Assembly: GCF_004339675.1 (NCBI RefSeq) | Contig: NZ_SLVM01000004.1 | Coordinates: 62,001-126,000 of the forward strand | Origin: Rhodovulum steppense | GTDB lineage: Bacteria; Pseudomonadota; Alphaproteobacteria; Rhodobacterales; Rhodobacteraceae | Direction: 5' to 3' | DNA length: 64,000 nucleotides | Shown: piece by piece, positions 5,272-58,037 of the stretch | Layout: each line of letters starts with the position of its first letter | Position numbering within the stretch: position 1 is the first letter of the stretch | Program-made: the position numbers and the translations under genes | The notes under the pieces: generated by a model | What the model was told of the DNA's origin: nothing | The model's input: the letters and a program-made list of their open reading frames with translations, nothing else | The model's database searches: none

Positions 5272-5288
5272 GGCCGAGGGAGACCGCC

Positions 5289-5957: not shown

Positions 5958-5960
5958 GCG

Positions 5961-5980
5961 GGGCGCGCTTGAGCGCGCCC
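5961..5980 (+). terminator. Stem-loop after purQ, terminator-like
   Basis: GGGCGCGC and GCGCGCCC form a perfect eight-base stem with a TTGA loop four bases after the purQ stop. There is no T-run, so it may be a Rho-dependent end or an mRNA-stabilising hairpin rather than a classical terminator. Confidence 0.4.
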
Positions 5981-6003
5981 GCGCCAGGGCGTAACCTGTT
6001 GCC

Positions 6004-7767: not shown

Positions 7768-7776
7768 CGAGGAACG

Positions 7777-9108
7777 ATGCCCCAGGCCATGAAGATCGCC
7801 ATTGTCGACGATGAACAGGACATGCGCCAGTCGATCAGCCAGTGGCTGGCGCTGAGCGGGTTCGAGACCGCCACCTTTGCGCGCGCCGAGGATGCGCTGA
7901 AGGAGATCGGCCCAGATTTCCCGGGTGTCGTCGTGACCGACATCAAGATGCCGGGCATGGACGGGATATCGTTCCTGAAAAAGCTGATGAGCCTCGATTC
8001 CACGCTGCCCGTTATCATGATCACAGGCCATGGCGATGTGCCGATGGCGGTCGAGGCGATGCGGATCGGCGCTTATGACTTCATGGAGAAGCCGTTCAAT
8101 CCCGACCGGATGACGGAACTGGCCAAGCGGGCGAGCCAGTCGCGCAGGTTGACGCTGGACAACCGGGCGCTGCGCCGCGAACTGGGCGACGGCTCGGTGC
8201 TGGTCAAGAAGCTGATGGGCTCGTCCCCCGTGATGGAGCGGCTGCGCGAGGATATCCTGGATCTGGGCCAGGCCGACGGTCATGTGCTGATCGACGGCGA
8301 GACCGGCACCGGCAAGACGCTGGTGGCGCATGCGCTGCATGCGGTCGGGCCGCGGGCGGGCAAGAGATTCGTGCAGATCGCCTGCGCTGCCTGCGACCCC
8401 GACGCGCTGTCGGCCCGGCTGTTCGGTCCGGTCGAGGAGGGCGGTGCGCTGCCCGCGGTCGAGGACGCGCGTGGCGGCACGCTCTGTCTGGAGGATGTCG
8501 AGGCGTTGTCGCCGTCCTTGCAGGCGCGTCTTCTGACCTTCATCAACGATCAGGGCAACCCGGCGGAGACGCGCATCATCGCGGTTTCGAACCTTCAGGA
8601 ACAGGACAAGACCGTCGAGGATGTCCTTCGCCCGGATCTCTATTACCGCCTTGCGGCGATGAAGATCACCCTGCCGCCCCTGCGGGCCCGGGGCGAGGAT
8701 GTCCTGACGCTGTTCACCCGGCTTTCCGAGCAGTTCGCCGAGGAATATGGCTGCGACGCGCCCGAGGTCAGTGCCCAGGAGGCGGCGCAACTGATGCAGG
8801 CGCCCTGGCCCGGCAATATCCGCCAGCTCATCAACATCGCCGAACGCGCGGTGCTGCAAAGCCGCCGCGGATCGGGGACGATCGCCAGCCTCCTGATGGC
8901 CGACAACGAGGCGACGCGGCCGGTGATGACGACCGAAGGCAAGCCGCTTAAGGAGTATGTCGAGGCGTTCGAGCGCATGTTGATCGACAACACCATGCGC
9001 CGCCACAAGGGTTCGATCGCGGGCGTGATGGAAGAGCTTTGCCTGCCCCGGCGCACGCTGAACGAGAAGATGGCCAAGTACGGACTCAGCCGGTCCGACT
9101 ATCTCTGA
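7777..9108 (+). CDS. dctD: DctD-like response regulator with AAA+ domain, no GAFTGA motif
   Basis: A 443-residue three-domain regulator. The receiver domain (about 5-120) has the Asp-Asp pair in VDDEQD, the phospho-acceptor Asp in VVTDIKMPGMDG and the Lys in MEKPFNP. The AAA+ domain (about 145-370) has Walker A GETGTGKT near residue 174 and the arginine-rich RPDLYYRLAAMKITLPPLR region. A Fis-type helix-turn-helix closes the protein (MEELCLPRRTLNEKMAKYGLS). The sigma54-contact loop is abnormal: where GAFTGA is expected after LFG the protein reads PVEEGGALPAVEDA. The Walker B Asp-Glu is also inverted (GGTLCLEDVEAL). It is probably not a standard sigma54 activator. Cotranscribed with dctB. Confidence 0.82.
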   Translation: MPQAMKIAIVDDEQDMRQSISQWLALSGFETATFARAEDALKEIGPDFPGVVVTDIKMPGMDGISFLKKLMSLDSTLPVIMITGHGDVPMAVEAMRIGAYDFMEKPFNPDRMTELAKRASQSRRLTLDNRALRRELGDGSVLVKKLMGSSPVMERLREDILDLGQADGHVLIDGETGTGKTLVAHALHAVGPRAGKRFVQIACAACDPDALSARLFGPVEEGGALPAVEDARGGTLCLEDVEALSPSLQARLLTFINDQGNPAETRIIAVSNLQEQDKTVEDVLRPDLYYRLAAMKITLPPLRARGEDVLTLFTRLSEQFAEEYGCDAPEVSAQEAAQLMQAPWPGNIRQLINIAERAVLQSRRGSGTIASLLMADNEATRPVMTTEGKPLKEYVEAFERMLIDNTMRRHKGSIAGVMEELCLPRRTLNEKMAKYGLSRSDYL

Positions 9109-9519
9109 GGCGGATTGCGGCGGAAAAAGGCATTGTGTTTGGCGGTCAAGTGCCGCTAATGTCGCCGGGCGTCGGCCCGTCCGGAGGGACGTGCCCGAGC
9201 GAGGAATGAGTTTCGCTGTTTTTCGCGCGTCCCGCGGCGATATGTCCTGGACCAGCACGAAACAGGCCGATCGGGTTCGGCAAGAACCCACCGCATCCCC
9301 GGGCCCGCGAGGGGCGCCGGGTTTAACCAACGGGTGCCGCGATCCCATGCGGCATCGGAGACGAACCGCGATGGAGTGCGCCGAACAGTCAGGGCACGGG
9401 ACGGGCAGGCCAGATGCCGCCCGCCGACCCGGTGTGCGCGCCCACGCCCCAACAAGACACCCACCGCACCGTCTGGCCCCCCCGGGGGCAGGCGGCCCGC
9501 CGTGGTGCAAAGAATTGAT
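9109..9519 (+). other. Long leader region upstream of rne, no gene seen
   Basis: 411 bases between dctD and the RNase E start with no coding frame that looks real. A possible promoter (TTGTGT at 9133-9138, GCTAAT at 9155-9160, 16-base spacing) would give a leader of about 350 bases. Long leaders are typical of rne genes, where the enzyme controls its own mRNA. I see no clear hairpin that could be compared with the enteric rne control element. Confidence 0.4.
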
Positions 9520-12174
9520 ATGGCAAAGAAAATGCTCATCGACGCCACCCACGCGGAAGAAACCCGCGTGGTGGTGGTGGACGGAACCAGGGTTGACGAT
9601 TTCGACTTCGAAAGCGTCAACAAGCGGCAACTCGCCGGCAATATCTACCTAGCGAAAGTCACCCGGGTCGAGCCCTCGCTTCAGGCGGCTTTCGTGGATT
9701 ACGGCGGCAACCGCCACGGTTTCCTGGCTTTCTCGGAGATCCATCCGGATTATTACCAGATCCCGGTGGCCGACCGCGAGGCGCTGCTGGCCGAGGAACG
9801 CGCGCTCGCCGAGGCGATGGACGAGGACGAGGGCGGCGACAAGCCCCGTCCCAAGCGGCGCAGCCGGTCGCGCCGTTCGCAGAAGGACGAGGCGGTGGAG
9901 GTCGAGTCCGCCTCCGAGGCCGATGCGGAGGTGCAACCGGAAGGCGATTCGCCGGAGCCCGAGGCAGAGACCGGGGACGACACTAAGCCGTCCGCCACGA
10001 TGGCGGCTTCGGCCCGCAGTGACGATCCGGTCGAAACCCGCGAACCCGCCAGCATTCCCGGTATGGATGTCGTCGATCTGGGCGAGGAAGACGTGGCCGC
10101 CCCGCCGGTCGAGGATGCCGCCGATCCGGCCAAGCCCCGCCGTCCGAGTCGGCGTCGGCGCAAGCCCGCGCGCAAATCGGGCGAGGCCGCGGCAGATACC
10201 GACGCCTCACCGTCCGAGACGGCGGGCGAGGAGGGCGAGGATAACAGCACCGACCTTGTAGAGCGCGATGACCAGATCGAGTCGATCGCCGAGGAGGATG
10301 TGGCCGAGGAGATCCGCCGACCCAAGCCACGACTGCGGCGCTACAAGATCCAGGAGGTCATCAAGGTCCGGCAGATCATGCTGGTCCAGGTGGTCAAGGA
10401 AGAGCGCGGCAACAAGGGCGCGGCGCTCACGACCTATCTGAGCCTTGCGGGCCGCTACTGCGTGCTGATGCCCAACACCGCCCGCGGTGGCGGCATCTCG
10501 CGCAAGATCACCAATGCCGCGGATCGCAAGAAGCTGAAGGAAATCGCGGCCGAACTTGAGGTGCCCGAGGGCGCCGGCCTCATCATCCGCACGGCGGGGT
10601 CGCAGCGGACCAAGTCCGAGATCCGGCGCGACTACGAATACCTGCAACGGCTGTGGGAACAGATCCGCGAGCTGACGCTGAAATCCATCGCGCCCGCGCC
10701 GATCTACGAGGAAGGCGACCTGATCAAGCGCTCGATCCGCGATCTTTACTCGCGCGAGATCGACGAGGTGCTGGTCGAGGGCGAGCGCGGCTACCGCGTG
10801 GCCAAGGACTTCATGAAGATGATCATGCCGTCCCACGCCAAGAACGTGCGCCATTACACCGAGCAGATGCCGCTTTTCGCGCGCTTCCAGGTGGAAAGCT
10901 ACCTGTCCTCGATGTTCAACCCGACGGTCCAGTTGAAATCGGGCGGCTATATCGTGATCGGGGTGACCGAGGCGCTGGTGGCGATCGACGTGAACTCGGG
11001 GCGGGCGACGAAAGAGGGCTCGATCGAGGAAACCGCGCTCAAGACCAACCTGGAGGCCGCCGAGGAAGTGGCGCGGCAGTTGCGCTTGCGCGACCTTGCC
11101 GGGCTGATCGTCATCGACTTCATCGACATGGAAGAGCGCAAAAACAACGCCGCCGTCGAGAAGCGCCTGAAGGACAAGCTGAAGAGCGACCGCGCCCGCA
11201 TCCAGATCGGCCGGATCTCGGGCTTCGGCCTTCTGGAGATGAGCCGCCAGCGGCTGCGCCCCGGCATGATCGAGGCGACGACCCAGCCCTGTCCGCATTG
11301 CCACGGCACCGGGCTGATCCGGTCCGACGACAACCTTGCGCTGGCGATCCTGCGCCAGCTTGAGGAGGAAGGCGTGCGCGCCCGCTCGCGCGAGGTGCTG
11401 CTGAAGGCGCCGATCGGCATCGTCAACTACCTGATGAACCAGAAGCGCGAGCATATCGCCCAGATCGAGGCGCGCTATGGCCTGTCGGTGCGGGTCGAGG
11501 CCGATCCGTTCCTGATCTCGCCCGATTTCTCGATCGAGCGGTTCAAGACGGCCACAAGGGCGGTGCCCGAGGTCAGCGCGCCGGTCATCTCGGTCGATAC
11601 CTCCGACATGCCCGATCTGGCCGAGGAGGTCGAGACAGCCGAAGCCGAGGCCGCGCCCGCGGCCGTGACGGTTGCCGGGGAAGAGGACAAGCCCAAGAAG
11701 CGCCGCCGCCGCCGTCGGCGCAAGAAGCCCGGGCAGACCGACGAGGAGGCGCGGCTGGAAGAGGCGGCGGCCGACGAGGCTGAGGCTGTGCCGCTGGCGG
11801 ATGCGGCTGAGGACGCGGGTGAGACCGAGACAGCGCCCAAGAAAGGCCGCAGCCGACGTTCGCGCGGGTCCCGGGCAAGCAAACCAGAGCCCGCAGCCGA
11901 GCCCATGGCGGAGGATGCCGAGGCCGAGGCGATGCCCGAGCCGGAGTCGGCGCAGGCCGCGTCCGACGTTCAGGCCGGGGCCGCGGCGATGCCGGAGCCA
12001 GAGGCGGCAGAGGCTGCATCCGACATTCGGCCCGAGACCGAAGCCGAGGCCCTGCCCGAGGTCGAGGCAGAGGTGCAGCCCGCACCGGCGCCCGAACTGG
12101 TCGAGCAAGGGGACGATTCCGCCAAGGCGGAGCCTGCGTCGCGCAAGCGCGGCTGGTGGTCGCTGGGCCGGTAA
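9520..12174 (+). CDS. rne: Ribonuclease E/G, RNase E type with S1-domain insertion
   Basis: An 884-residue endoribonuclease, the scaffold of the RNA degradosome. It opens with MAKKMLIDATHAEETRVVVV and the first half of the S1 domain (VDYGGNRHGFLAFSEI). An acidic/basic low-complexity insertion of about 185 residues (about 85-270) then interrupts S1, which resumes at RRYKIQEVIKVRQIMLVQV. The catalytic DNase-I-like domain has the Asp residues in AIDVNSGRAT (near 489) and VIDFIDMEE (near 533). The Zn-link is PCPHCHGTG (near 590). The C-terminal third is Ala/Glu/Pro-rich with basic patches (KKRRRRRRRKKP) for RNA and partner binding. The ATG at 9520 is the conserved start; longer in-frame starts add unconserved residues. 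Confidence 0.95.
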   Translation: MAKKMLIDATHAEETRVVVVDGTRVDDFDFESVNKRQLAGNIYLAKVTRVEPSLQAAFVDYGGNRHGFLAFSEIHPDYYQIPVADREALLAEERALAEAMDEDEGGDKPRPKRRSRSRRSQKDEAVEVESASEADAEVQPEGDSPEPEAETGDDTKPSATMAASARSDDPVETREPASIPGMDVVDLGEEDVAAPPVEDAADPAKPRRPSRRRRKPARKSGEAAADTDASPSETAGEEGEDNSTDLVERDDQIESIAEEDVAEEIRRPKPRLRRYKIQEVIKVRQIMLVQVVKEERGNKGAALTTYLSLAGRYCVLMPNTARGGGISRKITNAADRKKLKEIAAELEVPEGAGLIIRTAGSQRTKSEIRRDYEYLQRLWEQIRELTLKSIAPAPIYEEGDLIKRSIRDLYSREIDEVLVEGERGYRVAKDFMKMIMPSHAKNVRHYTEQMPLFARFQVESYLSSMFNPTVQLKSGGYIVIGVTEALVAIDVNSGRATKEGSIEETALKTNLEAAEEVARQLRLRDLAGLIVIDFIDMEERKNNAAVEKRLKDKLKSDRARIQIGRISGFGLLEMSRQRLRPGMIEATTQPCPHCHGTGLIRSDDNLALAILRQLEEEGVRARSREVLLKAPIGIVNYLMNQKREHIAQIEARYGLSVRVEADPFLISPDFSIERFKTATRAVPEVSAPVISVDTSDMPDLAEEVETAEAEAAPAAVTVAGEEDKPKKRRRRRRRKKPGQTDEEARLEEAAADEAEAVPLADAAEDAGETETAPKKGRSRRSRGSRASKPEPAAEPMAEDAEAEAMPEPESAQAASDVQAGAAAMPEPEAAEAASDIRPETEAEALPEVEAEVQPAPAPELVEQGDDSAKAEPASRKRGWWSLGR

Positions 12175-45409: not shown

Positions 45410-45504
45410 CGTCTGTTCTCCTCGTTGCTGCGAACACTACAAGAACAAACTCTCCGAATGAATGGCTCAGCTTTCCGGTGGCAGGTCATTCGATGAAGAG
45501 CGAC

Positions 45505-46207
45505 GCCGCAGCGCATGTATGGACTGGGCGGTGCCCGACTACACCACCTTGTGTCGACGCCAGAAGACGCTCGCCGTTCAGATCCCGTATCGGCGCGTCG
45601 ACGGCCCGCTGACCCTGCTGGTCGACAGCACCGGGATCAAGTTCCTCGGTGACGGCGGATGGCAGGCCAGAAAGCACGGCGCCCAGGGTCGGCGCCAGTG
45701 GCGCAAGCTCCATCTGGCGATGGATACCGCCACGTCTGACATCCGGGCAGTGGAATTCACTCCCAGCAGCGATGGCGACAGTCCGGTCTTGCCGGACCTG
45801 CTGGACCAGATCCCCGAGGGCGAAGACATCGGGACCGTGACCGCGGACGGTGCCTGTGACACGCGCCGCGGCCACACCGCCATCATCAAGCGCCAAGCCG
45901 TCGCGATCATCCCGATCCGCAAGAACGGCCGACCGTGGCAAGAGGGCTGCCCCGGCGCAATCGCCCGAAACGAAACCTTGCGCGCCACCCGGCACTACGG
46001 CAGGGCCTTCTGGAAGCGATGGACGGGATACCACGTCCGAAACCGCATCGCGGCAAGAGACCCCGACCGCCAGACCGCCGAAATCCAGATCCGCATAGCA
46101 TTGCTGAACCGCTTCTCGGTCCTCGGAGCGGCCGAGATCATTCCTGTGGCCTGAAATCAACGGGAAAGGGGAAGTCACGCCTCAGGCGTGAGCTGCGCAA
46201 CAACGCC
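45505..46207 (+). mobile_element. IS5-family (IS903-like) transposase remnant with right inverted repeat
   Basis: The frame (45462-46154) matches an IS5 transposase from DWAVPDYTTLCRRQKTLAV on, with LLVDSTGIKFLGDGGWQARK carrying the first Asp and VTADGACDTRRGH the second. The N-terminal about 80 residues are missing at the junction with the IS3 remnant near 45500. About 20 residues are deleted after WKRWTGYH, where the third catalytic residue (Glu in SRAETKMHCVK-like copies) should be. The right terminal repeat is visible as GGCGTTGTTGCGCAGCTCAC on the minus strand, ending at 46207, and an adjacent TCACGCCTCAGGCGTGA hairpin. cas3 follows. Confidence 0.8.
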
Positions 46208-46360
46208 ATGATTTTCCACCTGCTCGAGATCTGGGGGCTCCCCCAAACCCGGCGTGGTTCAGGGTCCGACCCGAGGCAGTATCGAAGTCAGAAAGGCTTC
46301 ACCTGCGTCCTCCCGTCAATAAAAATGCCTTGTCATGCTGAAGGAATACCCGTGGAATTG

Positions 46361-46385
46361 GAGCATGTGAATTTAGAGCATGTGA
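46361..46385 (+). repeat. Tandem decamer GAGCATGTGA x2 before cas3
   Basis: GAGCATGTGA occurs at 46361-46370 and 46376-46385, 15 bases apart. If cas3 starts at the TTG (46394), the pair lies just upstream of the start and could be a regulator site. If it starts at the ATG (46325), the repeats are coding. Confidence 0.35.
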
Positions 46386-46393
46386 GGGTCTAT

Positions 46394-48928
46394 TTGATTT
46401 TTTCACAAAAAGGATCAAGTGCTTGGGGAAAATGCAACAATGCCACATGCGAATTCCATCATCTGGCGCACCATTCAGCGGATGTTGCCGCGGTCTTCCT
46501 TGAACTGATCGAACAGCCTCATTTGCGAGCACGGGCCAATGCGGCGTGCGGGCAGCCTCTTGGCAAGGAGGAGTTGCGCTGCCTTGCCGCCCTGGTCTTT
46601 CTTCATGACATCGGCAAGCTGGCACCGGGGTTTCAGGCGAAGGGATGGCCAGAGGGGGCCGACGTAACCCCGCGAGGACATCTCGAGTGCGGCTGGCTAT
46701 GGCTCACACAGGGATCACCGGAGTCATTGGGCGGCAACATCGCGCATATGTTGCGTTGGTCAAATGCACCGGGCCTGGAAGACTGGTTTGGCGCGCTGTT
46801 CGCCCACCATGGTCGGCCGGTGCCGAAGCCCAGCCCGGGAACGGCCAGAGTCGCCTTCCCATCGGGAAAGGTCGCGGGTTACGATTGGAAGGCTCAAGAG
46901 GCCGTCATGGGCAGGGCGCTACTGGACTGGTTTCCCGAGATCATGACGTCCTCGGCACCGGAGCCCGTTCCGCCACTTGTGCACTTCTTTTGCGGGCTAT
47001 TGACGCTTGCCGACTGGATCGGATCGGATCGGAGGGCCTTTCCGTTCGAGTCTACCTTCCGGAGAGATTACTGGGAGACCGCCAGAACGCGTGCGGCAGA
47101 CAGAGTGGCCGCGATCGGGCTCGCCGGGGGTAGCCTGCGCCTGTGCGGCGCGCCCGGCTGGGCGCTGATCTCGGACCATCCGTCCCCGCGCCCGGCGCAG
47201 CAGGCCGTCGGCTCCGTGCCTGCAACCGAGCGCCTTGTCCTGCTGGAGGCGGAAACCGGGTCGGGCAAGACAGAGGCTGCGCTTTGGCGCTTTGCCACGC
47301 TGTTGGCTGCCGAAGAAGTTGACGCCCTCTATTTCGCCGTTCCTACGCGCGCCGCGGCGCGGCAACTGCATCGACGGGTCAACACGGCGCTGAAACGGAT
47401 GTTCGATGCCGCGCCCGAGGCCGTTCTGGCAGTGCCGGGGCAGCTTCTGGCCGGAGAGGCGGCGGGCCGACGGCTGCCCGGTTTCGAGGTGCTCTGGGAC
47501 GACACCGCGTCCCGGCCAGCCCGTTGGGCAGCCGAACATGCCGCGCGATATCTCGCCGCGCAGGTGGCCGTGGGGACGGTCGATCAGGTGGCTCTCGGGG
47601 GCTTGCGCGTGAAATATGCGCATCTGCGCGGAAGCGCGCTGTCGCGGGCGCTCCTGGTGATCGACGAGGTCCATGCGTCGGATGCCTACATGACCGAGGT
47701 GCAGCTTGCGATGGTGCGCAGCCATCTGGCGCTCGGCGGTCATGCGATGCTGATGTCTGCGACGCTCGGGGCGGCAGCGCGGCGCAGGTGGTTGAGCGAG
47801 GCGTCGGCCGATCTGGCCGCCGATACCGCGCGGCCCTATCCGGCGGTATGGACGAGCCGCGGGCCGCAAGCTGTCGCGCCGGATCGCGATTCCGGCAAGG
47901 CCGTGCATGTCGAGGCGCATCGGGGCTGGACAGGAGACGAGGCCGCACGCCTGGCGCTCGAGGCCGCGGACCGGGGCGCGCGGGTGCTGGTGATCCGCAA
48001 TACGGTGATCCGGGCGCAGGAAACCTTTGCAGCCTGCCATGCCGCCCGACCCGATCTGCTGCTGGCGGTCGAGGGGCAACCGACCCTGCATCACAGCCGG
48101 TTCGCGGCCGAGGATCGGGCGCTGCTCGACATCGCGGTCGAGGACGCCATCGGCAAGGACAGCCCAATCGGCGGGCGCATCGTGATCGGAACGCAGACAC
48201 TCGAACAATCGCTCGACCTCTGCGCCGACCTGCTGATCGCCGACCTGTGTCCGATGGATGTGCTGCTGCAACGGATCGGGCGGCTGCACCGGCATCGTCG
48301 GCCCCGGCCGCCGGGGTTCGAGGCGGCGCGCGCCATCGTCCTGTGCCCGCCTGACGGGCTCGACCCGCTGACCCGCACTGCGGAAAACGGGCTGGGCGCA
48401 TATGCGAACGGGCCCAGCCTGTCGGGGGTCTATGTCGATGTTCCGGGGTTGGCCGCGACCCTGGCCGAGATCGAGGCGCGCCCGGTCTGGAAGATTCCGG
48501 CGATGAACCGCGCTCTGGTCGAAGCCGCCACGCATCCCGAGGCGCTCGACCGGATTGCTGCGGCGCAGGGCTGGCAACCCTACCGCCAGCGCGTCACCGG
48601 CAAGGCCCTCGCCGAGATGGGGGCGGCCGGTCTGGTGCTGCTGGACCGGACGGCGCCGCTGCCCCGGAGCTTTCCCGATGACGAAAGGATAAGAACGCGG
48701 CTGGGCGAGGACGGCGTCATTCTGACCCTGCCCGAGGGCACGCGGGGGGCCTTCGGGACGCCGATCACCCGGCTGGCGCTGCCGGCGCACTGGTCACGCG
48801 GGCTGACCGGGGAGGAAGAGGTGCAGATCGATCCGGGGCCGCCGATAAGGGTGACCGTTTCTGACAGGGTGATGGTCTACGGTCCAGCGGGACTCATGCA
48901 GGAACTGGGGGAACAGCATGGCGCATGA
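46394..48928 (+). CDS. cas3: CRISPR-associated nuclease/helicase Cas3 (type I-E)
   Basis: An 844-residue HD nuclease fused to an SF2 helicase that degrades DNA marked by Cascade. The HD motif is HHLAHHSADVAAVF with FLHDIGKLAPGF. Walker A is EAETGSGKTEAALW, the DEAD-box is LLVIDEVHASDAYM, motif III is LMSATLG, and motif VI is QRIGRLHRHR with the TLEQSLDLCADLLI segment. GAGGG stands six bases before the TTG at 46394 and puts the start ten residues before the conserved AWGK. The frame is open to an ATG at 46325, which adds 23 residues and has no ribosome site. It overlaps cse1 by 11 bases. The usual order cas3-cse1-cse2-cas7-cas5-cas6e-cas1-cas2 is complete. Confidence 0.95.
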   Translation: MIFSQKGSSAWGKCNNATCEFHHLAHHSADVAAVFLELIEQPHLRARANAACGQPLGKEELRCLAALVFLHDIGKLAPGFQAKGWPEGADVTPRGHLECGWLWLTQGSPESLGGNIAHMLRWSNAPGLEDWFGALFAHHGRPVPKPSPGTARVAFPSGKVAGYDWKAQEAVMGRALLDWFPEIMTSSAPEPVPPLVHFFCGLLTLADWIGSDRRAFPFESTFRRDYWETARTRAADRVAAIGLAGGSLRLCGAPGWALISDHPSPRPAQQAVGSVPATERLVLLEAETGSGKTEAALWRFATLLAAEEVDALYFAVPTRAAARQLHRRVNTALKRMFDAAPEAVLAVPGQLLAGEAAGRRLPGFEVLWDDTASRPARWAAEHAARYLAAQVAVGTVDQVALGGLRVKYAHLRGSALSRALLVIDEVHASDAYMTEVQLAMVRSHLALGGHAMLMSATLGAAARRRWLSEASADLAADTARPYPAVWTSRGPQAVAPDRDSGKAVHVEAHRGWTGDEAARLALEAADRGARVLVIRNTVIRAQETFAACHAARPDLLLAVEGQPTLHHSRFAAEDRALLDIAVEDAIGKDSPIGGRIVIGTQTLEQSLDLCADLLIADLCPMDVLLQRIGRLHRHRRPRPPGFEAARAIVLCPPDGLDPLTRTAENGLGAYANGPSLSGVYVDVPGLAATLAEIEARPVWKIPAMNRALVEAATHPEALDRIAAAQGWQPYRQRVTGKALAEMGAAGLVLLDRTAPLPRSFPDDERIRTRLGEDGVILTLPEGTRGAFGTPITRLALPAHWSRGLTGEEEVQIDPGPPIRVTVSDRVMVYGPAGLMQELGEQHGA

Positions 48929-50456
48929 TCTGTTGCACGATCCGCTGATCCAGACGGACCGGGATTGGCACAGCCTGCCCGGCTTGATGGCGGCGATGGT
49001 GCGGGGCGAGGTGGCGGACTTCCCGGCGCTGCGCCCGCACCAGCGCCCCGCCTGGCACATGTTCCTCGTGCAACTCGCGGTGCTGGCGCTGGATGCCTCG
49101 GGGCAGCGCGAACCCCGACAGACGGAAGACGGCTGGCGCGCCGCGCTTCGTGCGCTGACGTCGGATTTCCCCGACGACGCTCCGTGGCAGTTGATCGGCG
49201 AGGACCGCAGCCGCCCCGCGTTTCTGCAGCCGCCCGATCCCGGCGGGCTGAAATGGTCCGCCGTCGCGACGCCCGATGCGCTCGACATGCTGATCACCTC
49301 GCGCAACCACGAGCTGAAGCGCGAGATAGCGCATCAGGCTGAAGCCCAAGATTGGGTATTCGCCCTGATGAGCCTTCAGACAATGGAGGGGTATGGTGGT
49401 GGCGGCGGGACGCTCAACGGCATCGCAAGGATGAACAAGGGGAACTCATCTCGCGTGCTATTGGGACTTGCCCCGGCACGCCCCGGCTCTGCCGAGATCG
49501 ACCCCTCGGCCTGGTGGGCCCGCGATGTGCGCCGCCTGCTGGCGGGGCGCGAGGGGCTTGCCGGCAAGGCGCTGCTCTGGCTCTGCCCCTGGCCCGAGGG
49601 ACGGTCGCTGGACCTTTACACGCTCGATCCGCTGTTCATCGAGGTCTGCCGCCGAATCCGGCTGACCCTCCGCGACGGGCGAATGGCGGCCGAGCGCAGC
49701 ACCTCGAAGGGGCCGCGGGTGGCCGCGAAGGAGGCCAGGGGCAATACCGGCGATCCCTGGGCGCCGATCCATCTGACCGAGGGCAAGAGCCTGACGCTGG
49801 GCGAGCGCGACTGGACCCACGAGTTGCTCGTCGATCTGCTCTATCGCGGGGACTGGCAGGTTCCGCTGCTCGCCCAACCGAGCCAGGAGGAAGAAGCGGC
49901 GCCGATGTTGCTGGTGGCCGAGGCGTTCTCGCGGGGCAATTCCAAGACCGACGGGTTCCGCTCCCGCATCGTGCCGGTGCCGAAGGCGATGGTTGGACAC
50001 ATGCTCGGAGCCCGCCCGCGGAACCTGGCCGAGGGGATACTTGAAGATGTCAAAGCCGTATCAGGCGCTCTGTCCCACAGTCTCCAACTGGCTTCGACTG
50101 AAGGGGATCCTGAAAAACTGAAGACGGAACGGAAAGGGCAGGCTTCACGCGCGAAGCTTTCAAAATATTCCGCACCTGCCTGCGAGGCGCTGCGGCGCGA
50201 GGCCGACCGCCGTTTCTTTGCCGAGCTTTGGGTGCGATTGGCAGAAACCACGGATCAAGGGATCGGGCGCTTGCGTCGGAGCTTTCTGGATGGGCTGGCA
50301 AAGGTCGCGCGGGCCGAGTTCGCCGCCGCGCTGCCGGGTATTCCCTGCGCCACGCTCATGCGCCCGCGCGCCGAGGTCCGCGCGCGCCGCGCGCTGGAAG
50401 CAGGGCTGCGCAAGGCGATGAAGGATTTCAAGCAACCGGAGGGGATGGATGTCTGA
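48918..50456 (+). CDS. casA: Cascade large subunit Cse1 (Cas8e/CasA)
   Basis: A 512-residue large subunit that recognises the PAM and recruits Cas3. The N-terminus LLHDPLIQTDRDWHSLPGL and the ALRPHQRPAWHMFLVQLAVLAL segment are typical of Cse1. QTMEGYGGGGGTLNGIARM is the glycine loop near residue 160. It ends in a helical bundle (LRRSFLDGLAKVARAEF). The start overlaps the cas3 end and the stop overlaps the cse2 start, so translation is coupled throughout. Confidence 0.93.
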   Translation: MAHDLLHDPLIQTDRDWHSLPGLMAAMVRGEVADFPALRPHQRPAWHMFLVQLAVLALDASGQREPRQTEDGWRAALRALTSDFPDDAPWQLIGEDRSRPAFLQPPDPGGLKWSAVATPDALDMLITSRNHELKREIAHQAEAQDWVFALMSLQTMEGYGGGGGTLNGIARMNKGNSSRVLLGLAPARPGSAEIDPSAWWARDVRRLLAGREGLAGKALLWLCPWPEGRSLDLYTLDPLFIEVCRRIRLTLRDGRMAAERSTSKGPRVAAKEARGNTGDPWAPIHLTEGKSLTLGERDWTHELLVDLLYRGDWQVPLLAQPSQEEEAAPMLLVAEAFSRGNSKTDGFRSRIVPVPKAMVGHMLGARPRNLAEGILEDVKAVSGALSHSLQLASTEGDPEKLKTERKGQASRAKLSKYSAPACEALRREADRRFFAELWVRLAETTDQGIGRLRRSFLDGLAKVARAEFAAALPGIPCATLMRPRAEVRARRALEAGLRKAMKDFKQPEGMDV

Positions 50457-50979
50457 GACCACTGACGACATGGCCCGCAATGCGGTGGCGATCGCCGCCG
50501 CATTGGCTGCGGCAGATTCTGGCGAGAAGGCCGAGGCCCGGCGCATGGACGAGGGCGGTGCGCCGATATTCTGGCGGCAGGTGGCGCGGCTGAAGCTGCC
50601 CCGCTGGCAGGAAGCCGGTTGGCTGCGCTTCACCCGCATGGTGGCGATCCTGACGCCGGCCAGCGCGGGGCAGACGATCCATGATCCGAAACGTCCAGTC
50701 GGTGCCGTTCTTGCAGACGGGGGCAGCCCGCTGGCCGATCTCAGGCCACCAAACAGACCGTTCGTTTCCGAACAGCGCCTCGCGCGGCTCTTGGCTGCGC
50801 GGGGAGACGCTAGGCGCGACGCGCTGGAACGTGCGATCCGCATGCTGGCGCGCAATCATCCGTCAATGAACGTGGTTGATCTGGCCCGCCTGAACTACGG
50901 ACGCGACCGCAACGAGCTTGCCCGCGCCTATTACCAACGCATTGATTTTGCCCCGACCGAGGAGAGCCAAGATGCCTGA
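50449..50979 (+). CDS. casB: Cascade small subunit Cse2 (CasB)
   Basis: A 176-residue all-helical small subunit that stabilises the R-loop along the Cascade belly. FWRQVARLKLPRWQEAGWLRF and AGQTIHDPKRPVGAVLADGG, then SEQRLARLLAARGDARRDAL and LARLNYGRDRNELARAYYQ match the family. The start lies inside the cse1 end and the stop inside the cas7 start. Confidence 0.92.
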   Translation: MSETTDDMARNAVAIAAALAAADSGEKAEARRMDEGGAPIFWRQVARLKLPRWQEAGWLRFTRMVAILTPASAGQTIHDPKRPVGAVLADGGSPLADLRPPNRPFVSEQRLARLLAARGDARRDALERAIRMLARNHPSMNVVDLARLNYGRDRNELARAYYQRIDFAPTEESQDA

Positions 50980-52180
50980 TCCGCGTTTCCTGCAAATCCA
51001 TTTCCTCGCGCCCTATACCGCGGCGCTCCTGAACCGCGACGACGCGGGCCTGGCGAAGCGCTTGCCCTATGGCGGGCACCTTCGCACCCGCGTGAGTTCT
51101 CAATGTTTGAAATACCATTGGCGGTGGGCTGACGATCTCCATGCGCTGAGCGAGATCGCGGGATGGGCGAAATCATACCGTTCGCGCAGCATTGTCGACA
51201 GTCTCATAGTAGAGGAATGCCGAGACGGTTTCTCCGATGAGGTTGTCAGTGCCTTGGCTCAATGGTTCAACTTCGCTGTCTATAGCGGAAAAGGTGACGA
51301 GAAACCGAAGAAGAGAGGAGTGGCCGCAAAGGCTGATGAAAAAGAGGGGCGTCCCACACTTCTGTTCGGAGAGCCGGAAATCCGCTGGCTGAAGAGCGAG
51401 TTTGTGCGTTTGGCTAAAGAGGCAGACGGAGAGCCGGACACGGCATTCAGCCTTGGCGAAAGCTGGGTCGGTTTGCCGAAGAAAGGGCGAAGCGAGTTCC
51501 AGAAAAATCGCGAGGCGAACCTTGAGGCGCTGCGTCAGGCAGGGGAAGTTCCCGCCGGCCTGACCGGCGCGCTGTTCGGGCGGATGGTCACCTCGGACCC
51601 CAAGGCCAATATCGAGGCCCCCGTCCATGTCGCCCATGCCTTCACCGTGCATGCCGAAGAGGCCGAAAGCGACTATTTCATTGCCGCCGACGATCTGGCC
51701 CGCGGAGAGGATACCGGCGCGGATACGATCCAGGAAACCGAACTGACCTCCGGCCTGTTCTACGGCTATGTGGTTGTGGACATCCCCGGCCTTCTGTCCA
51801 ATCTCGGCGGCGATGCGCGGCTGGCGGGCGAGGCGCTGCACAATCTCGTCTACCTGATCGCCGAGGTCTCGCCAGGGGCCAAGCTGGGCTCGACCGCACC
51901 CTATTCCCGTGCGTCCTTTCTCATGCTCGAGGCAGGTGACCGCCAGCCGCGGTCTCTGGCCGAGGCATTCCGCAGCCCCTGTTCGGCGGAAACCGGGCAG
52001 GCTGTGGCGGCGCTGTCCGAGCACCTCGCAGCGCTCGATGCGGCCTATGCGACGGGCGAGAGCCGGCATGTCATGTCGCTGGCCAATGCCGAGGTTCCGG
52101 GAGCGGAACGCGGGACGCTGGCCGATCTGGCCGGTTTCGCGCAAGGACTGCCCGCACGGATCGCGGACCGTGCGGCATGA
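50972..52180 (+). CDS. casC: Cascade backbone subunit Cas7e (CasC)
   Basis: A 402-residue RAMP-fold backbone protein, six copies of which line the crRNA. The signature FLQIHFLAPYTAALLNRDDAG and HLRTRVSSQCLKYHWR are the N-terminal strand and RNA-contact loop. NIEAPVHVAHAFTVHAEEAESDYF and TELTSGLFYGYVVVDIPGLLSNLG are the palm motifs, and KLGSTAPYSRASFLMLEAG the C-terminal one. The ATG at 50972 overlaps the cse2 stop by eight bases. Codon use and GC are slightly lower between 51.1 and 51.5 kb. Confidence 0.95.
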   Translation: MPDPRFLQIHFLAPYTAALLNRDDAGLAKRLPYGGHLRTRVSSQCLKYHWRWADDLHALSEIAGWAKSYRSRSIVDSLIVEECRDGFSDEVVSALAQWFNFAVYSGKGDEKPKKRGVAAKADEKEGRPTLLFGEPEIRWLKSEFVRLAKEADGEPDTAFSLGESWVGLPKKGRSEFQKNREANLEALRQAGEVPAGLTGALFGRMVTSDPKANIEAPVHVAHAFTVHAEEAESDYFIAADDLARGEDTGADTIQETELTSGLFYGYVVVDIPGLLSNLGGDARLAGEALHNLVYLIAEVSPGAKLGSTAPYSRASFLMLEAGDRQPRSLAEAFRSPCSAETGQAVAALSEHLAALDAAYATGESRHVMSLANAEVPGAERGTLADLAGFAQGLPARIADRAA

Positions 52181-52911
52181 CGCATCGCTGGCTGCATCTG
52201 CGCCTGTCGGCGCCGCTCATGGCCTTTGGCGGGGTCGCCATCGACCATGTCGGGCACACGCGCGATTTTCCCTCGGCCTCGATGCTGACGGGGCTTTTAG
52301 CCAATGCGCTCGGCTGGCGGCGCGAAGAGGCCGAGAGGCATCAGGCGCTGCAGGACCGTCTGGTTTTCGCGGCACTGATTGCGCGACAGGGGCGCGTTCT
52401 CACGGATGGCCAGAACGCGCGGCTGTACGAAGCCGAACCCGGCTGGACGACGTCGGGGGTACCTGAAACGCGCAACAGTGGACCGAGCTACTCGAACCCA
52501 CCGGTCCGAAATCAGGTCGGCAACCAGGCAGGTCGGAAGTGGATGACGCACCGCCGACGCCGCGACTACCTGGTCGATCACGATTGCCGCGTTGTTCTTC
52601 GCCTCGAACCAGGCGAGGGACCGGAACTAGACGCCCTTGCTCGCGCTCTTGAGCGCCCAGCTCGTCCGCTTTTCATCGGGCGGAAGCCCTGCTTGCCCGC
52701 GGCGCCACTGCTTCAGGGTTGGCTCAACGCCTCTACGGCAAGAGCAGCGATCGAAACCTTGGGCCTCGCGGGCCGTGCGCTCTGGCCGTCGACGGACGGC
52801 GAGGCCGACGGAACGGTTCGCGACCTGCAGGATCTCCGCAACTGGCGCTCCGGCCTGCACGGCGGAAGCCGACGTGTGATCGAGGCCGAGATCGCGGGAG
52901 GTGCTTCATGA
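52177..52911 (+). CDS. casD: Cascade subunit Cas5e (CasD)
   Basis: A 244-residue RAMP protein that caps the 5' handle of the crRNA. LHLRLSAPLMAFGGVAIDHV, then RDFPSASMLTGLLANALGWR are the Cas5e start, YLVDHDCRVVLRLE the second strand, and PLFIGRKPCLPAAPLL the conserved RKPCLP motif. Overlaps cas7 and cas6e by four bases each (ATGA). Confidence 0.95.
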   Translation: MTHRWLHLRLSAPLMAFGGVAIDHVGHTRDFPSASMLTGLLANALGWRREEAERHQALQDRLVFAALIARQGRVLTDGQNARLYEAEPGWTTSGVPETRNSGPSYSNPPVRNQVGNQAGRKWMTHRRRRDYLVDHDCRVVLRLEPGEGPELDALARALERPARPLFIGRKPCLPAAPLLQGWLNASTARAAIETLGLAGRALWPSTDGEADGTVRDLQDLRNWRSGLHGGSRRVIEAEIAGGAS

Positions 52912-53657
52912 CTATCCATCTGGTCGAACTCCCGGTTGAGTTGCGCAGCCTTCATCTATGGGCCGGCAGGCGGGGGCTTGGCGGAAGCTTCGACGAGGGG
53001 CTGGCGCTGCACCATGTGCTGGGCGAGGCGTTTGGCCCGGCCATGTTGCAACCCTTTCGCCTGATGGTGGCGCCACGCGCCCGGGCCGGGTCGCTTTACG
53101 CCTATTCCCGGCACTCCGCCGATGAGCTTCGCGATGCTGGCAGCCGCGGTCTTACCCCTGGCCTGGCAGATGTGGTCCGACTCGATCGCCTGCGATCCCT
53201 CGCCCGCCCGGCGGAAAGCTGGACGGCCGGTCTGAGGCTCGGCTTCGATCTGCGGATGCGGCCGGTCGTCCGGCTCGCTTCTGCGTTCAAGGGACAGACT
53301 GAAACCGGCACGCAAGTCAACTTTCGCAAGGGGGCCGAGATCGACGCCTTTCTCGCCGCCGCCCTGCGGGGTGGCGCGGCGGAGCGCGAGGCCGTCTATC
53401 TCGATTGGCTGGCCGACCGACTGGCCCCGGCGGCGGAACTCGAGCGCGACATGAGCCGTCTCGCCTCTTTCCGCCGGAGCACTGTTCAGCGCAGCGGCCG
53501 GCGGATCGAAGGGCCCGACGCCACCGTTCACGGCACCCTCACCATCACCGACCCCGACGCCTTTGCCGGGTTGCTGGCAAGGGGCGTGGGGCGCCATCGC
53601 GCCTATGGGTACGGCATGCTCCTGCTGCGTCCGCTGCAGCGGAAACGGGCATGCTGA
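52908..53657 (+). CDS. casE: crRNA endonuclease Cas6e (CasE)
   Basis: A 249-residue processing enzyme that cleaves the repeat RNA below its stem and stays bound to the 3' hairpin. The N-terminal ferredoxin-like domain has LALHHVLGEAFGPAMLQPFR, containing the catalytic His region expected near residue 35. The C-terminal Gly-rich loop is GLLARGVGRHRAYGYGMLLL. The start at 52908 overlaps the cas5e stop. The repeats downstream carry the matching CCCCGC/GCGGGG stem. Confidence 0.94.
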   Translation: MTIHLVELPVELRSLHLWAGRRGLGGSFDEGLALHHVLGEAFGPAMLQPFRLMVAPRARAGSLYAYSRHSADELRDAGSRGLTPGLADVVRLDRLRSLARPAESWTAGLRLGFDLRMRPVVRLASAFKGQTETGTQVNFRKGAEIDAFLAAALRGGAAEREAVYLDWLADRLAPAAELERDMSRLASFRRSTVQRSGRRIEGPDATVHGTLTITDPDAFAGLLARGVGRHRAYGYGMLLLRPLQRKRAC

Positions 53658-54529
53658 AGGGGCGGCTCGGCCTCGACAGTGCCAAGGTGCCCCATGCCGA
53701 CCGGGCGGGGTGCCTCTACCTCGCACGGGGGGCCTTGACCGCACGCGATGGAACGCTCGCCTTCCTGCAGGGACCGCAGACCGAGGCGGATGCGCTTGCC
53801 GAGGGCGACTACGCCATCCCGTTGCAGGGCGTGTCGATCGTCCTGCTCGGCCCGGGATCGACGGTCAGCCACGACGCGCTGCGCCTGCTCGCCCATGCCC
53901 GCACGGCGCTGGCCGCGGTCGGCGAGGATGGCGTCCGCCTGTACACCGCGCCGCCGATGATCCCCGACCGCTCCGGCCTTGCGCGGCTCCAGGCCCGGAT
54001 CTGGGCCGATGACGATCTGCGCGTGATGACGGCGCGGCGGATGTATGCGATGCGCCTCGGCGAGGTCCTTCCGCACAAGGATCTCGATGTGTTGCGCGGC
54101 ATCGAGGGCGCGCGGATGAAGGAGACCTATGCGCTGCAGGCCCAGCGGATCGGCATCCCCTGGCGCGGGCGCCGCTATGACCGTGCCAATCCCATGGCTG
54201 CCGATCTGCCGAACCAGGGGCTGAACCACGCCGCGAGCGCCGTCGAGGCCGCCGCAGCGATCGCCGTCTGCGCGACCGCGACCATCCCCCAGCTGGGCTT
54301 TATCCACGAGGATCCCGGGCAGAGCTTCGTCCTCGACGTGGCCGACCTCTACCGCGACAGCGTGACGGTGCCCTGCGCCTTCAAGGCGGCCAGACAGGTT
54401 TCCGAGCGCCCGTCCGAGAACATCGAGCGCGTGACCCGTCGCCTGACCGGCACCGCGCTCAGCCGGGAGGGGATCATCCCCGCCATGATCGAGAGGATCA
54501 AGGCGCTGATCGAAGGACGCGAGACCTGA
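53651..54529 (+). CDS. cas1: Type I-E integrase Cas1
   Basis: A 292-residue Cas1e that inserts new spacers with Cas2. Metal-binding residues lie in RGIEGARMKETYALQAQ (Glu), QGLNHAASAVEAAAA (His) and FVLDVADLYRDSVTV (Asp). Length and the N-terminal PLQGVSIVLLGPGSTVSHDAL beta-domain are normal. The start overlaps the cas6e stop by seven bases; the stop shares its A with the cas2 ATG. All active-site residues are intact, so adaptation should be functional. Confidence 0.95.
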   Translation: MLKGRLGLDSAKVPHADRAGCLYLARGALTARDGTLAFLQGPQTEADALAEGDYAIPLQGVSIVLLGPGSTVSHDALRLLAHARTALAAVGEDGVRLYTAPPMIPDRSGLARLQARIWADDDLRVMTARRMYAMRLGEVLPHKDLDVLRGIEGARMKETYALQAQRIGIPWRGRRYDRANPMAADLPNQGLNHAASAVEAAAAIAVCATATIPQLGFIHEDPGQSFVLDVADLYRDSVTVPCAFKAARQVSERPSENIERVTRRLTGTALSREGIIPAMIERIKALIEGRET

Positions 54530-54822
54530 TGCCGCTGACCATGATCGTGACCCGCGACGTCGAGATGCGCTACCGGGGTTTTCTGACCTCGATCATGCTG
54601 GAGATTGCACCGGGTGTCTACGTCTCGCCCGACATGTCGGCCGGTGTCAGGCAACGGGTCTGGTCGGTGATGACGGATTGGTGGTCGCAGCTTCACAGAG
54701 GCTCTCTGGTCATGGTATGGCGAGACAGCAAGGCCGTCGGAAATCTCAGGATCGAGACCCTGGGCGAGCCGTCCAAGCTGATCGTCGACGCGGACGGCCT
54801 TCTGCTCGTAAAACGAAAGTAA
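54529..54822 (+). CDS. cas2: Type I-E Cas2
   Basis: A 97-residue Cas2e that forms the dimer core of the adaptation complex. MIVTRDVEMRYRGFLTSIML, APGVYVSPDMSAGVRQRVW and GSLVMVWRDSKAVGNLRIETL match the type I-E family. Cas2e has no catalytic role in integration. It is directly followed by a 65-base AT-richer leader and the array. Compare with the unrelated type II-like Cas2 relic at 55.9 kb. Confidence 0.95.
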   Translation: MPLTMIVTRDVEMRYRGFLTSIMLEIAPGVYVSPDMSAGVRQRVWSVMTDWWSQLHRGSLVMVWRDSKAVGNLRIETLGEPSKLIVDADGLLLVKRK

Positions 54823-54887: not shown

Positions 54888-55879
54888 GGCTCCCCCGCAC
54901 CCGCGGGGATAGACCCCATCTGGACGGGGTCTGCGCCTGCGGGCGCTGGGCTCCCCCGCACCCGCGGGGATAGACCCCTCGATCGCGCCGGCGCGACGGT
55001 CCTGCTGCAGGCTCCCCCGCACCCGCGGGGATAGACCCTCGTTGATCGGCTGATTCCTTGCCGCCAGCGCGGCTCCCCCGCACCCGCGGGGATAGACCCT
55101 GTTTTGCATCGCGCTGACCAGCGTTTCGACCGGCTCCCCCGCACCCGCGGGGATAGACCCCCGACTGCTCCGCCGCAAGCTCGGCCATGTTGGGCTCCCC
55201 CGCACCCGCGGGGATAGACCCCGCGATGCACCGCCTCCAGCACGCGGAAAGCAGGCTCCCCCGCACCCGCGGGGATAGACCCCGATGCTCCCGCCGATTG
55301 CGGCTCCCCCGCACCCGCGGGGATAGACCCGGCGAAGGACCGCATCGTCCGCGTTTCCCGGTGGCTCCCCCGCACCCGCGGGGATAGACCCGCCAAGATG
55401 TATCGGGTCACTTCCTGCCGTTTGGCTCCCCCGCACCCGCGGGGATAGACCGTGCGGCGCGTGGTTCATCCCCGCGACGCCCTCGGCTCCCCCGCACCCG
55501 CGGGGATAGACCCGGGTCCGTCACGGCCACGTCAAGCAGCATCCTGGCTCCCCCGCACCCGCGGGGATAGACCGTCCTCCTGCACCGAAATGGACATGGT
55601 GTATGGGGCTCCCCCGCACCCGCGGGGATAGACCCACCCGGTCGATCCACTCATCCGGCACCGCCTCGGCTCCCCCGCACCCGCGGGGATAGACCCCGCC
55701 CCACCGCTCCGCTGGCCGCGCCCGGCACGGCTCCCCCGCACCCGCGGGGATAGACCCTGGGACATGGGCGTCCCGGTTCGGTTTTCCTGGGCTCCCCCGC
55801 ACCCGCGGGGATAGACCCGTTTCCTGCGGCTGCCGCGGCCGACCGACGAGGGCTCCCCCGCACCCGCGGGGATAGACCC
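54888..55879 (+). CRISPR. Type I-E CRISPR array, 17 repeats and 16 spacers
   Basis: Repeats start at 54888, 54949, 55010, 55071, 55132, 55193, 55254, 55302, 55363, 55424, 55485, 55546, 55607, 55668, 55729, 55790 and 55851. The unit starts GGCTCCCCC, has a CCCCGC/GCGGGG stem with an ACCC loop, and ends GGGGATAGACC plus a 29th base. It is very similar in design to the E. coli I-E repeat. The first 28 bases are identical in all copies by eye. The 29th base is C in 15 repeats and G in two (repeats 10 and 12). Spacers are 32 bases except spacer 7 (55283-55301), which is 19. Leader side is at 54888. Confidence 0.98.
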
Positions 55880-55892
55880 TGTCTCTTTACCC

Positions 55893-56135
55893 ATGGTGGA
55901 TATTTTCCATCGGCTTGGCTTCGAGATGGTCCAGTGCTCGGTGTATCTTCGCCATGCGTGGAGTCGGGAAAAGGCCGAATCCCTCGCGCGACAGGTCGGG
56001 GACTGCGTTCCAGAGGCGGGACATGTCCAGGTGCTCTTCTTCACGGACAAGCAATATGCGCAAAGCCAAGTCTTTCGTGGGCGGTCTTGATCGACGAATC
56101 CTGATGAAAAACCGCGCCACTTGGCCCTGTTTTGA
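55893..56135 (+). pseudogene. cas2: Type II-like cas2, N-terminally truncated with an in-frame stop
   Basis: The frame reads FHRLGFEMVQCSVYLRHAWS, REKAESLARQVGDCVPEAG and HVQVLFFTDKQYAQSQVFRG, then a TGA at 56088-56090, and continues in the same frame as STNPDEKPRHLALF to a second TGA at 56133-56135. This is the C-terminal two thirds of the Cas2 type found with cas9 systems, including its FTDKQY and terminal LF. It is not related in sequence to the I-E Cas2 upstream. The first 30 or so codons, with the catalytic-type Asp, are missing: the I-E array ends 13 bases before the remaining part. No cas9 or cas1 of type II is in the window. Confidence 0.75.
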
Positions 56136-56144
56136 CAGCCCTCT

Positions 56145-56170
56145 GTTCAATTCTCGGCGGCAGGACACCA
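56145..56170 (+). other. tRNA 3'-end-like fragment, possible attachment-site relic
   Basis: GTTCAATTC (T-loop-like) followed by a GC-rich strand and ACCA at 56167-56170 looks like the last 26 bases of a tRNA or tmRNA. The 5' portion of such a gene is not upstream, because cas2 coding sequence ends ten bases before it. Integrases commonly leave such copies at one border of an island. Confidence 0.35.
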
Positions 56171-56173
56171 GAA

Positions 56174-56201
56174 AAAGCCCCGCGCAAGAGTGGTTTGCGC
56201 G
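56174..56201 (-). terminator. Rho-independent terminator-like hairpin on the minus strand
   Basis: On the minus strand CGCGCAA, a seven-base loop and TTGCGCG form a stem followed by GGGGCTTTTT. No annotated gene ends there on that strand, so it may end a lost gene or a small RNA. Confidence 0.45.
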
Positions 56202-56340
56202 AGGTATATCCTAGCAGAGGAAGCGGCGTGGCCAAACCCGGACCAAGTGGGCGGCAAAGGGCAACCCTGACTGATCTCGGCTCAGGAGGCCGTGTGCTTG
56301 AGCCAAGGCGGTACGTTGGCTGCCCGCCCCGGTTTTCCCC

Positions 56341-56369
56341 TTGACGGCCGCCCCCACCTCCCTTACCTA
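56341..56369 (+). promoter_or_regulatory. Possible promoter of tRNA-Met
   Basis: TTGACG at 56341-56346 and TACCTA at 56364-56369, 17 bases apart, put the predicted start a few bases before the tRNA at 56383. The -10 box is weak. The stretch 56202-56340 upstream holds nothing I recognise. Confidence 0.35.
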
Positions 56370-56382
56370 GCGCCTCGCTCTT

Positions 56383-56459
56383 GGCGGAGTAGCTCAGTTG
56401 GTTAGAGCAGAGGAATCATAATCCTTGTGTCGGGGGTTCGAGTCCCTCCTCCGCTACCA
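56383..56459 (+). tRNA. tRNA-Met (CAT), elongator type
   Basis: A 77-base cloverleaf. The acceptor GGCGGAG pairs with CTCCGCT (first pair G-U), the D-arm is GCTCAGTTGGTTAGAGC, the anticodon arm is GAGGA-ATCATAA-TCCTT with CAT, and the T-arm is GGGGG-TTCGAGT-CCCTC. CCA is encoded. The CAT anticodon could also belong to a lysidine-modified Ile tRNA; the overall sequence resembles the elongator Met of this group. It sits inside the mobile island. Confidence 0.88.
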
Positions 56460-57582: not shown

Positions 57583-57855
57583 TTACAGTGGACCGGTCGG
57601 AACCAGCCCCTCCATCATCCGGGCGAAAACCCCCATGTCGCCCCAGCGCTTCCAGCGATTGTAGAGGGTCTTGGGCGGGCCATACTCCCGGGGCGCGTCA
57701 CACCATCTCAACCCGTTGCGATTGATGAAGGTTATGCCGCTCAGCACGCGCCGATCATCGACCCGCGGCTTGCCATGGCTCTTCGGAAAGAACGGTCGCA
57801 GCCGCTCCATCTGCTCCTCGGTCCGCCAGAAAAGGTTGCTCAGCCTCACCCCCAT
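57583..57855 (-). mobile_element. IS5/IS427-family orfA remnant
   Basis: Reads LSNLFWRTEEQMERLRPFFP, KSHGKPRVDDRRVLSGITFI, NRNGLRWCDAPREYGPPKTL and YNRWKRWGDMGVFARMMEGL, a nearly complete DUF4096-type orfA of IS427 elements. The DDE part (orfB) is absent: the frame runs into the IS110 remnant. Start at 57855. The 180 bases from here to the DUF952 gene hold nothing else recognised. Confidence 0.85.
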
Positions 57856-58037
57856 CAGTGCGAGAGCTTGAATCACGCAGAACGGGCAGCCTCAGCAGAT
57901 CAATGGGTCCTGACCCTAAGCCCCGTGGCGTTCGAGGACCGAGCTATGCGAACCTAACCTGATGTCCACGAAACCGGCAGCAGGCCACAAAGCCTCTGAC
58001 GCTTGACCGGGGCCGCATCAGCGGGCATGGGAGCGGG

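Follow-up and report, generated by a model that had tools for sequence, protein, structure and literature searches.

Gene content of the locus

The window (the whole stretch of 64,000 nucleotides analysed here, from Rhodovulum steppense) contains a type I-E CRISPR-Cas locus, in which the cas genes from cas3 to cas2e precede an array of 29-nt repeats at 61-nt steps. The features of this locus are:

45935-54822, plus strand: I-E cas genes as a whole, cas3 to cas2e
45935-48928, plus strand: cas3 ORF, NCBIfam match
48918-50456, plus strand: cse1, NCBIfam match below the curated cut-off
50449-50979, plus strand: ORF in the cse2 position, without an NCBIfam match
50918-52180, plus strand: cas7, NCBIfam match
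52177-52911, plus strand: cas5, NCBIfam match
52719-53657, plus strand: cas6, NCBIfam match below the curated cut-off
53405-54529, plus strand: cas1 (I-E), NCBIfam match
54529-54822, plus strand: cas2e, NCBIfam TIGR01873 (2e-27)
54888-55915, plus strand: I-E CRISPR array of 17 full 29-nt repeats, probably followed by one 32-nt spacer and the GGCT of an 18th repeat
55880-55911, plus strand: probable last I-E spacer, 32 nt, from the repeat scan

The 17 full repeats within 54888-55879 follow one another at 61-nt steps save for one step of 48; 15 of them share all 29 nt, and the other two differ in the last base only. The 48-nt unit lies at 55254-55330, where the spacer (55283-55301) is just 19 nt long. 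A second, divergent I-E cas operon is present in the same genome (contig C34, L135 5566-14014), and its Cas1e is 38% identical to that of the window.

The original prediction ended the array at 55879. The array probably extends further, by one spacer and four bases, to 55915: the I-E repeat begins with GGCT, and these four bases stand at 55912-55915 in exact 61-nt register, while the 32 nt before them (55880-55911) have the length of 15 of the 16 other spacers in the array. A protospacer search with this last spacer returned eight phage records, all with E of 0.3 or worse and none covering 80%, and no exact 24-mer of it was found in viral contigs.

Array ends were compared in 13 fetched stretches (L123-L135) and the genus member G005, where nine arrays with at least three repeats could be read to their end; the contig stops inside the L125 array, one repeat is present in L133 and two in L134, and L130 and L135 have none. 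The final repeat carries 2 to 5 changes in five of the nine (L126, L127, L128, L129 and L131), a change in its final base only in one (L132), and no change in three (L123, L124 and G005), of which L123 and L124 have array ends no more than 131 bases away from the end of a contig. Passages of Touchon and Rocha (2010, PMC2886076) report 3' degeneration of the terminal repeat in almost all cases in Escherichia and Salmonella. It is plausible that the I-E array of the window has a cut tail. The stronger claim, that a decayed terminal I-E repeat has certainly been lost, is weakened by the three readable related arrays that end unchanged.

A broken cas2 and a surviving repeat downstream of the array

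The following features lie between the array and the next tRNA gene:

55912-55917, no strand: joint of I-E array and II-C cas2; the array reaches 55915, and homology to cas2 sets in at 55914 (at 55917 in the R. adriaticum comparison)
55914-56135, plus strand: type II-C cas2 pseudogene, 3' end, last 73 residues and terminal stop, with an in-frame TGA at 56088-56090
56136-56207, plus strand: II-C stretch between cas2 and array, aligned with intact loci
56208-56243, plus strand: surviving type II-C repeat, 35 of 36 positions identical to the R. adriaticum repeat
56244-56273 and 56274-56309, plus strand: possible 30-nt spacer and, tentatively, a decayed terminal II-C repeat (19/36)
56383-56459, plus strand: tRNA-Met (CAT), the landmark common to the window and the relic in the congener G008

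The residues encoded at 55914-56135 (LGFEMVQ...LALF) are the C-terminal 73 of a Cas2. The relic matched TIGR01573 with E 1.2e-8 when the stop was masked and E 2.9e-8 for the open part alone (NCBIfam profiles), and PF09827 with E 6.8e-7 (Pfam), in each case above the cut-off. Its matches to Cas2 chains in solved structures were weak (8ia4, E 3.3e-5; 6jhz, E 9e-5; 6qxf, E 0.58). The intact Cas2 of R. imhoffii aligned with 55914-56132 at 78% identity (tblastn, E 4e-34). At the level of sequence, the relic was confirmed as the genuine, broken end of a type II-C Cas2. The original prediction had called it a Cas2 of the kind found in cas9 systems, and this held, with both Cas2 family profiles matching and intact relatives lying in type II loci of two Rhodovulum species. 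It had also set the relic apart from the I-E Cas2 at 54529-54822, rightly so, as the two match different families (TIGR01573 and TIGR01873). The relic is not a complete cas2 ORF: the front third is gone, and the in-frame TGA that had been described as splitting the gene was found at 56088-56090.

The coding sequence had been taken to begin at 55893. DNA homology to intact cas2 genes begins only with the CTTGGC at 55914 against R. imhoffii, and at 55917 against R. adriaticum (blastn). When 55880-55915 was compared with the cas2 fronts of 11 intact loci, with offsets of up to 6 allowed, it matched no better than shuffled sequence (895 of 2000 shuffles as good); 55893-55913 was rejected as cas2 sequence on this comparison, and the probable last spacer is likewise unlike a cas2 front.

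Over 219 nt the relic is 88% identical to the R. adriaticum gene and to the Rhodosalinus gene. Its codons differ from those of R. adriaticum by 12 silent and 10 amino-acid-changing differences, and from those of Rhodosalinus by 15 and 10 (the stop counted among the 10), while R. adriaticum and Rhodosalinus cas2 differ from each other by 24 and 6. The excess of changing codons in the relic was not significant (Fisher p 0.07 against R. adriaticum, 0.14 against Rhodosalinus) and is therefore a mere hint that constraint on the gene may be relaxed. The relic is probably recent.

Homology continues beyond cas2. An unbroken blastn match at 87% identity to R. adriaticum DSM 2781 (55917-56243) takes in cas2, the following stretch and the repeat, and a match at 71% to R. 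imhoffii DSM 18064 spans 55914-56251; the three elements are collinear in the window and in both species. The original prediction had overlooked this stretch and the II-C repeat preserved ahead of tRNA-Met, although the search of 55880-56383 for type II repeat relics that it proposed does return the one repeat at 56208-56243. This cognate repeat, the single recognisable one, is the sole match in the genome within 3 mismatches and the sole match in the window within 12. One 66-nt unit further on, 56274-56309 agrees with it at 19 of 36 positions, and across the window a fraction of 0.0008 of positions equal or exceed the match at this predicted register; it may, tentatively, be a decayed terminal II-C repeat. 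The corresponding register in G008 holds nothing alike (21 mismatches). An imperfect hairpin can be drawn near the end of 56136-56207, just before the repeat, and was rejected as an unusually stable structure, with 21 of 200 shuffles folding as well (fold z -1.36).

Intact type II relatives and what is missing from the window

A search of 101 sampled genomes (E 0.001) matched the relic in 12, the source genome counted, and the best two others were genus members. These are R. adriaticum DSM 2781 (G011) and R. imhoffii DSM 18064 (G009), whose intact Cas2 proteins are 85% and 77% identical to the relic and are accompanied by cas1, cas9 and arrays of 36-nt repeats; in R. adriaticum, cas9 is on a different contig from cas2. 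The plasmid collection held no close relative of the relic, the four Cas2 matches there being distant (at most 44%). At 28 loci with an intact relative (tblastn, E 1e-4), cas2 was found at all 28, cas1 at every locus but L108 (27), and cas9, whole or in part, at 22; the six loci without a cas9 match (L095, L096, L101, L105, L115 and L117; tblastn) are explained in part by contig ends. The best relatives are thus genes of type II loci and not VapD/Cas2-like proteins outside CRISPR loci, which would have spoken against a type II origin. The gene order is cas9-cas1-cas2 in R. imhoffii, P. bogoriensis, A. indica and others, and an array of 36-nt repeats at 66-nt steps follows cas2 in R. imhoffii and others. 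Subtype II-C loci carry cas9 and cas1 without csn2 or cas4; the locus is probably of this subtype, an assignment made from gene order and host group.

Compared with intact II-C loci of the Rhodobacteraceae, the window is without cas9, cas1 and the front of cas2, has a stop in the remaining gene and keeps one recognisable repeat. R. imhoffii Cas9, Cas1 and Cas2 were searched against the 64-kb window at E 1, with L104 as the positive control, and the cas2 stub alone was found. The search for type II Cas1 covered the window and that for Cas9 the whole genome; cas9 was not found in the source genome (G000), nor in G007, G008 and G117, whereas the same search was positive in four of the eight genomes (G009, the query's own genome, and G011, G003 and G361).

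Some related II-C loci show disruption of their own. Rhodosalinus halophilus (L096) has an IS256 transposase ORF near a cas1 without its front half (7957-8514 and 9421-9990), with cas2 and four II-C repeats left. Puniceibacterium confluentis (L101 9604-10450) has an open cas2, a single II-C repeat and a cas1 without its front. In R. adriaticum, an IS256 transposase gene lies beyond the distal end of the II-C array (L014 5977-7296).

The joint

The array register runs to 55915 and the cas2 match begins at 55914, so the two overlap by two bases only, CT. The remaining GG of GGCT is explained by the repeat alone, two bases that would agree by coincidence 1 time in 16. The original prediction had the 5' end of cas2 lost exactly at the array border; the border is real, and sharper than it had been drawn, with the array end and the cas2 start moved to 55915 and 55914. 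The I-E repeat matched the intact II-C DNA of three loci at 15-16 of 29 positions, and 300 shuffled repeats averaged 15.7 against one of these loci. No IS element was found at the joint, the IS5-family ORFs lying elsewhere. That cas9, cas1 and the cas2 front are gone is best accounted for by one illegitimate joint, probably lying within an I-E repeat.

The tRNA-Met site in the genus

The tRNA-Met gene at 56383, presumably of the elongator type, has one clear counterpart in each of the 16 genus genomes. DNA running from cas2 to the repeat was found in four of these genomes: the source genome, R. adriaticum, R. imhoffii and G008. The II-C contig differs from the tRNA-Met contig in R. adriaticum and R. 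imhoffii. G008 carries a shorter relic, composed of the cas2 tail, the following stretch and a repeat with 4 mismatches (L016 729-764), upstream of the same tRNA-Met (957-1033). The intact type II locus that the original prediction would have sought here in relatives was not found: in 15 congeners the surroundings of tRNA-Met, covered for about 10 kb on each side or as far as the contig end, yielded no II-C cas9, cas1 or whole cas2, and what G008 has at the site is the relic.

Downstream of tRNA-Met in G008, a long array begins at L016 7658 (7658-12000) and runs into L052, where the type I-C genes Cas1c, Cas7, Cas8c and Cas3 were located (1-9131, up to 21 kb along the 22 kb contig) in a scan that covered a subset of I-C genes. 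The array is thus within 10 kb of tRNA-Met, and the cas genes lie beyond. The neighbourhoods were also searched by tblastn with I-C, I-E and II proteins and scanned for arrays; in both relic-bearing genomes a different CRISPR type has an array within about 10 kb of tRNA-Met, which is the case in none of the 14 others, the compared neighbourhoods being unequal (the whole 22 kb contig in G008, about 10 kb on each side or to the contig end in the others, with 9170 bases in L051).

The closest relative by pyrD and aroQ is G007, with 97% DNA identity on the pyrD side and 95% on the aroQ side. Homology to G007 ends at 44698 and restarts at 57988, except for tRNA-Met and its promoter side, and in G007 aroQ, tRNA-Met and pyrD are on three contigs. 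The island is flanked by IS5-family ORFs at 45462-46154 and 57583-57876 (the second below the curated cut-off), and rearrangement via IS elements is plausible. In G008 (L016 993-2630, a site-specific recombinase, Ccr/XisF-like) and in G007 (L051), ORFs extend across the 3' end of tRNA-Met; a recombinase ORF in this position suggests that tRNA-Met is an integration site for mobile elements. A repeated element around AAAAGGTAAGACCCCCCTACAC, seen by eye, is present near tRNA-Met in G007 and G008, with part of it in inverted orientation beyond the tRNA (L051 about 8141-8300 and 8760-8840 in reverse-complement numbering; L013 20-130 and 370-490).

Origin of the arrangement

We propose, with a probability of roughly 0.77, that a II-C locus upstream of tRNA-Met was killed by one illegitimate joining of the start of an I-E repeat to the middle of cas2. 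An ancestral Rhodovulum would have carried a type II-C cas9-cas1-cas2-array directly upstream of tRNA-Met. On the II-C side the joining would have taken away cas9, cas1 and the first third of cas2, and on the I-E side anything that lay beyond that repeat; the II-C array would have shrunk to one recognisable repeat before or after this event. The relic, its repeat, the lack of a cas9 match and the position of the joint are observed, and from there we infer a single event, its direction, a cut I-E array and the death of the relic. The remnant (cas2 pseudogene, downstream stretch and vestigial repeat) would be non-functional, a dead relic, with I-E as the resident system, independent of it. Similar decay is seen in Rhodosalinus and Puniceibacterium. 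Plain insertion of the I-E locus into cas2 is disfavoured: searches of the window returned neither the other half of cas2 nor a type II cas1, and cas9 was not found in the genome.

Two orders of events fit this reading equally. The I-E locus may have been transferred horizontally to the tRNA-Met slot and its broken array end joined to cas2, so that gain and loss were one event, a course that we hold possible at somewhat under even odds. Close I-E Cas1e proteins (at least 69% identity) occur in 13 of 394 sampled family genomes from 393 genera, the source included, and in 2 of 16 genus genomes, the second (G005) at a different site; this patchy distribution and the different site indicate that the I-E locus is mobile. 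The flanking IS5-family ORFs, the separation of aroQ, tRNA-Met and pyrD onto three contigs in G007, and the array of another type near tRNA-Met in both relic genomes and none of the 14 others are also in keeping with arrival, but the IS ORFs lie away from the joint, the neighbourhoods compared are unequal in length, and the arrival is undated relative to the break. I-E and II-C may instead have stood in tandem before tRNA-Met until cas9-cas1 was lost in a deletion that reached from an I-E repeat into cas2, a possibility that also falls a little short of an even chance. A single deletion explains why cas9-cas1 and the cas2 front are gone and why the joint shares just 2 bases, but no genome with intact I-E and II-C loci adjoining was found: no I-E protein or repeat matched in the 28 II-C loci and 4 genus stretches, a pair of the latter overlapping with the 28 loci, and 13 I-E stretches yielded neither cas9 nor cas2 of type II-C but a single weak cas1 match of 34% (L127). 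Many of the stretches in this tandem search are short or end at contig ends.

The original prediction had the I-E locus displacing a type II locus or being recombined into it through homologous adaptation genes or array ends. A broken II-C part abutted by I-E is indeed what the window holds. The homologous route is unsupported, since only two bases are shared at the joint, the likeness of the I-E repeat to II-C DNA is at shuffle level and the two Cas2 proteins belong to distinct families; although passages of Koonin and Makarova (2019, PMC6452270) describe in-place exchange near cas1/cas2, we consider such a swap extremely improbable here. An assembly chimera at CRISPR repeats is only slightly more credible, and still very unlikely: the joint is at a repeat and the draft assembly has 70 contigs, but a repeat-driven misjoin needs the 29-nt repeat on both sides, where there is just GGCT, the cas2 remnant has an internal stop, and a genome-wide search did not find cas9.

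Relation to known CRISPR turnover

The illegitimate joining proposed above has partial parallels. Like the decayed II-C loci of Rhodosalinus halophilus (L096) and Puniceibacterium confluentis (L101), the window has lost the front and kept cas2 with few repeats (four and one in those loci); unlike it, they are cut in cas1, have no other CRISPR array at the break, keep an open cas2 frame and lie near other tRNA genes. That CRISPR modules are exchanged, including at the cas1/cas2 site of one locus, is treated as established in passages of Koonin and Makarova (2019, PMC6452270), and the window resembles the cases described there in having one CRISPR type beside parts of another, but differs in that the whole system is dead and the joint illegitimate, with no swap inside a working locus. 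Partial deletion of cas loci is common according to passages of Touchon and Rocha (2010, PMC2886076); the degraded loci of Escherichia, Shigella and Salmonella described there share with the window loss by partial deletion and single-repeat arrays, whereas in the window a CRISPR system of a different type adjoins the break. None of the paper titles listed in the literature searches deals with this joint. In-place CRISPR turnover being already known, the window is a clear new instance of it with a base-level joint.

The value of the case lies in that base-level joint and in the paired relic in the congener G008. Trees are the usual basis for concluding that one CRISPR type has replaced another, and here the joint is visible within a few bases. 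It points to illegitimate joining and not homologous exchange, and therefore makes one route of turnover testable across one 100-bp stretch. Single-repeat stubs of this kind can be read as fossils of Cas9 systems. A broader conjecture, which we regard as rather unlikely, is that incoming class 1 systems repeatedly take over a dying Cas9 slot at the Rhodovulum tRNA-Met, I-E being joined through its own array in the window and I-C lying near in G008; if so, II-C would have been ousted at this tRNA-Met slot at least twice.
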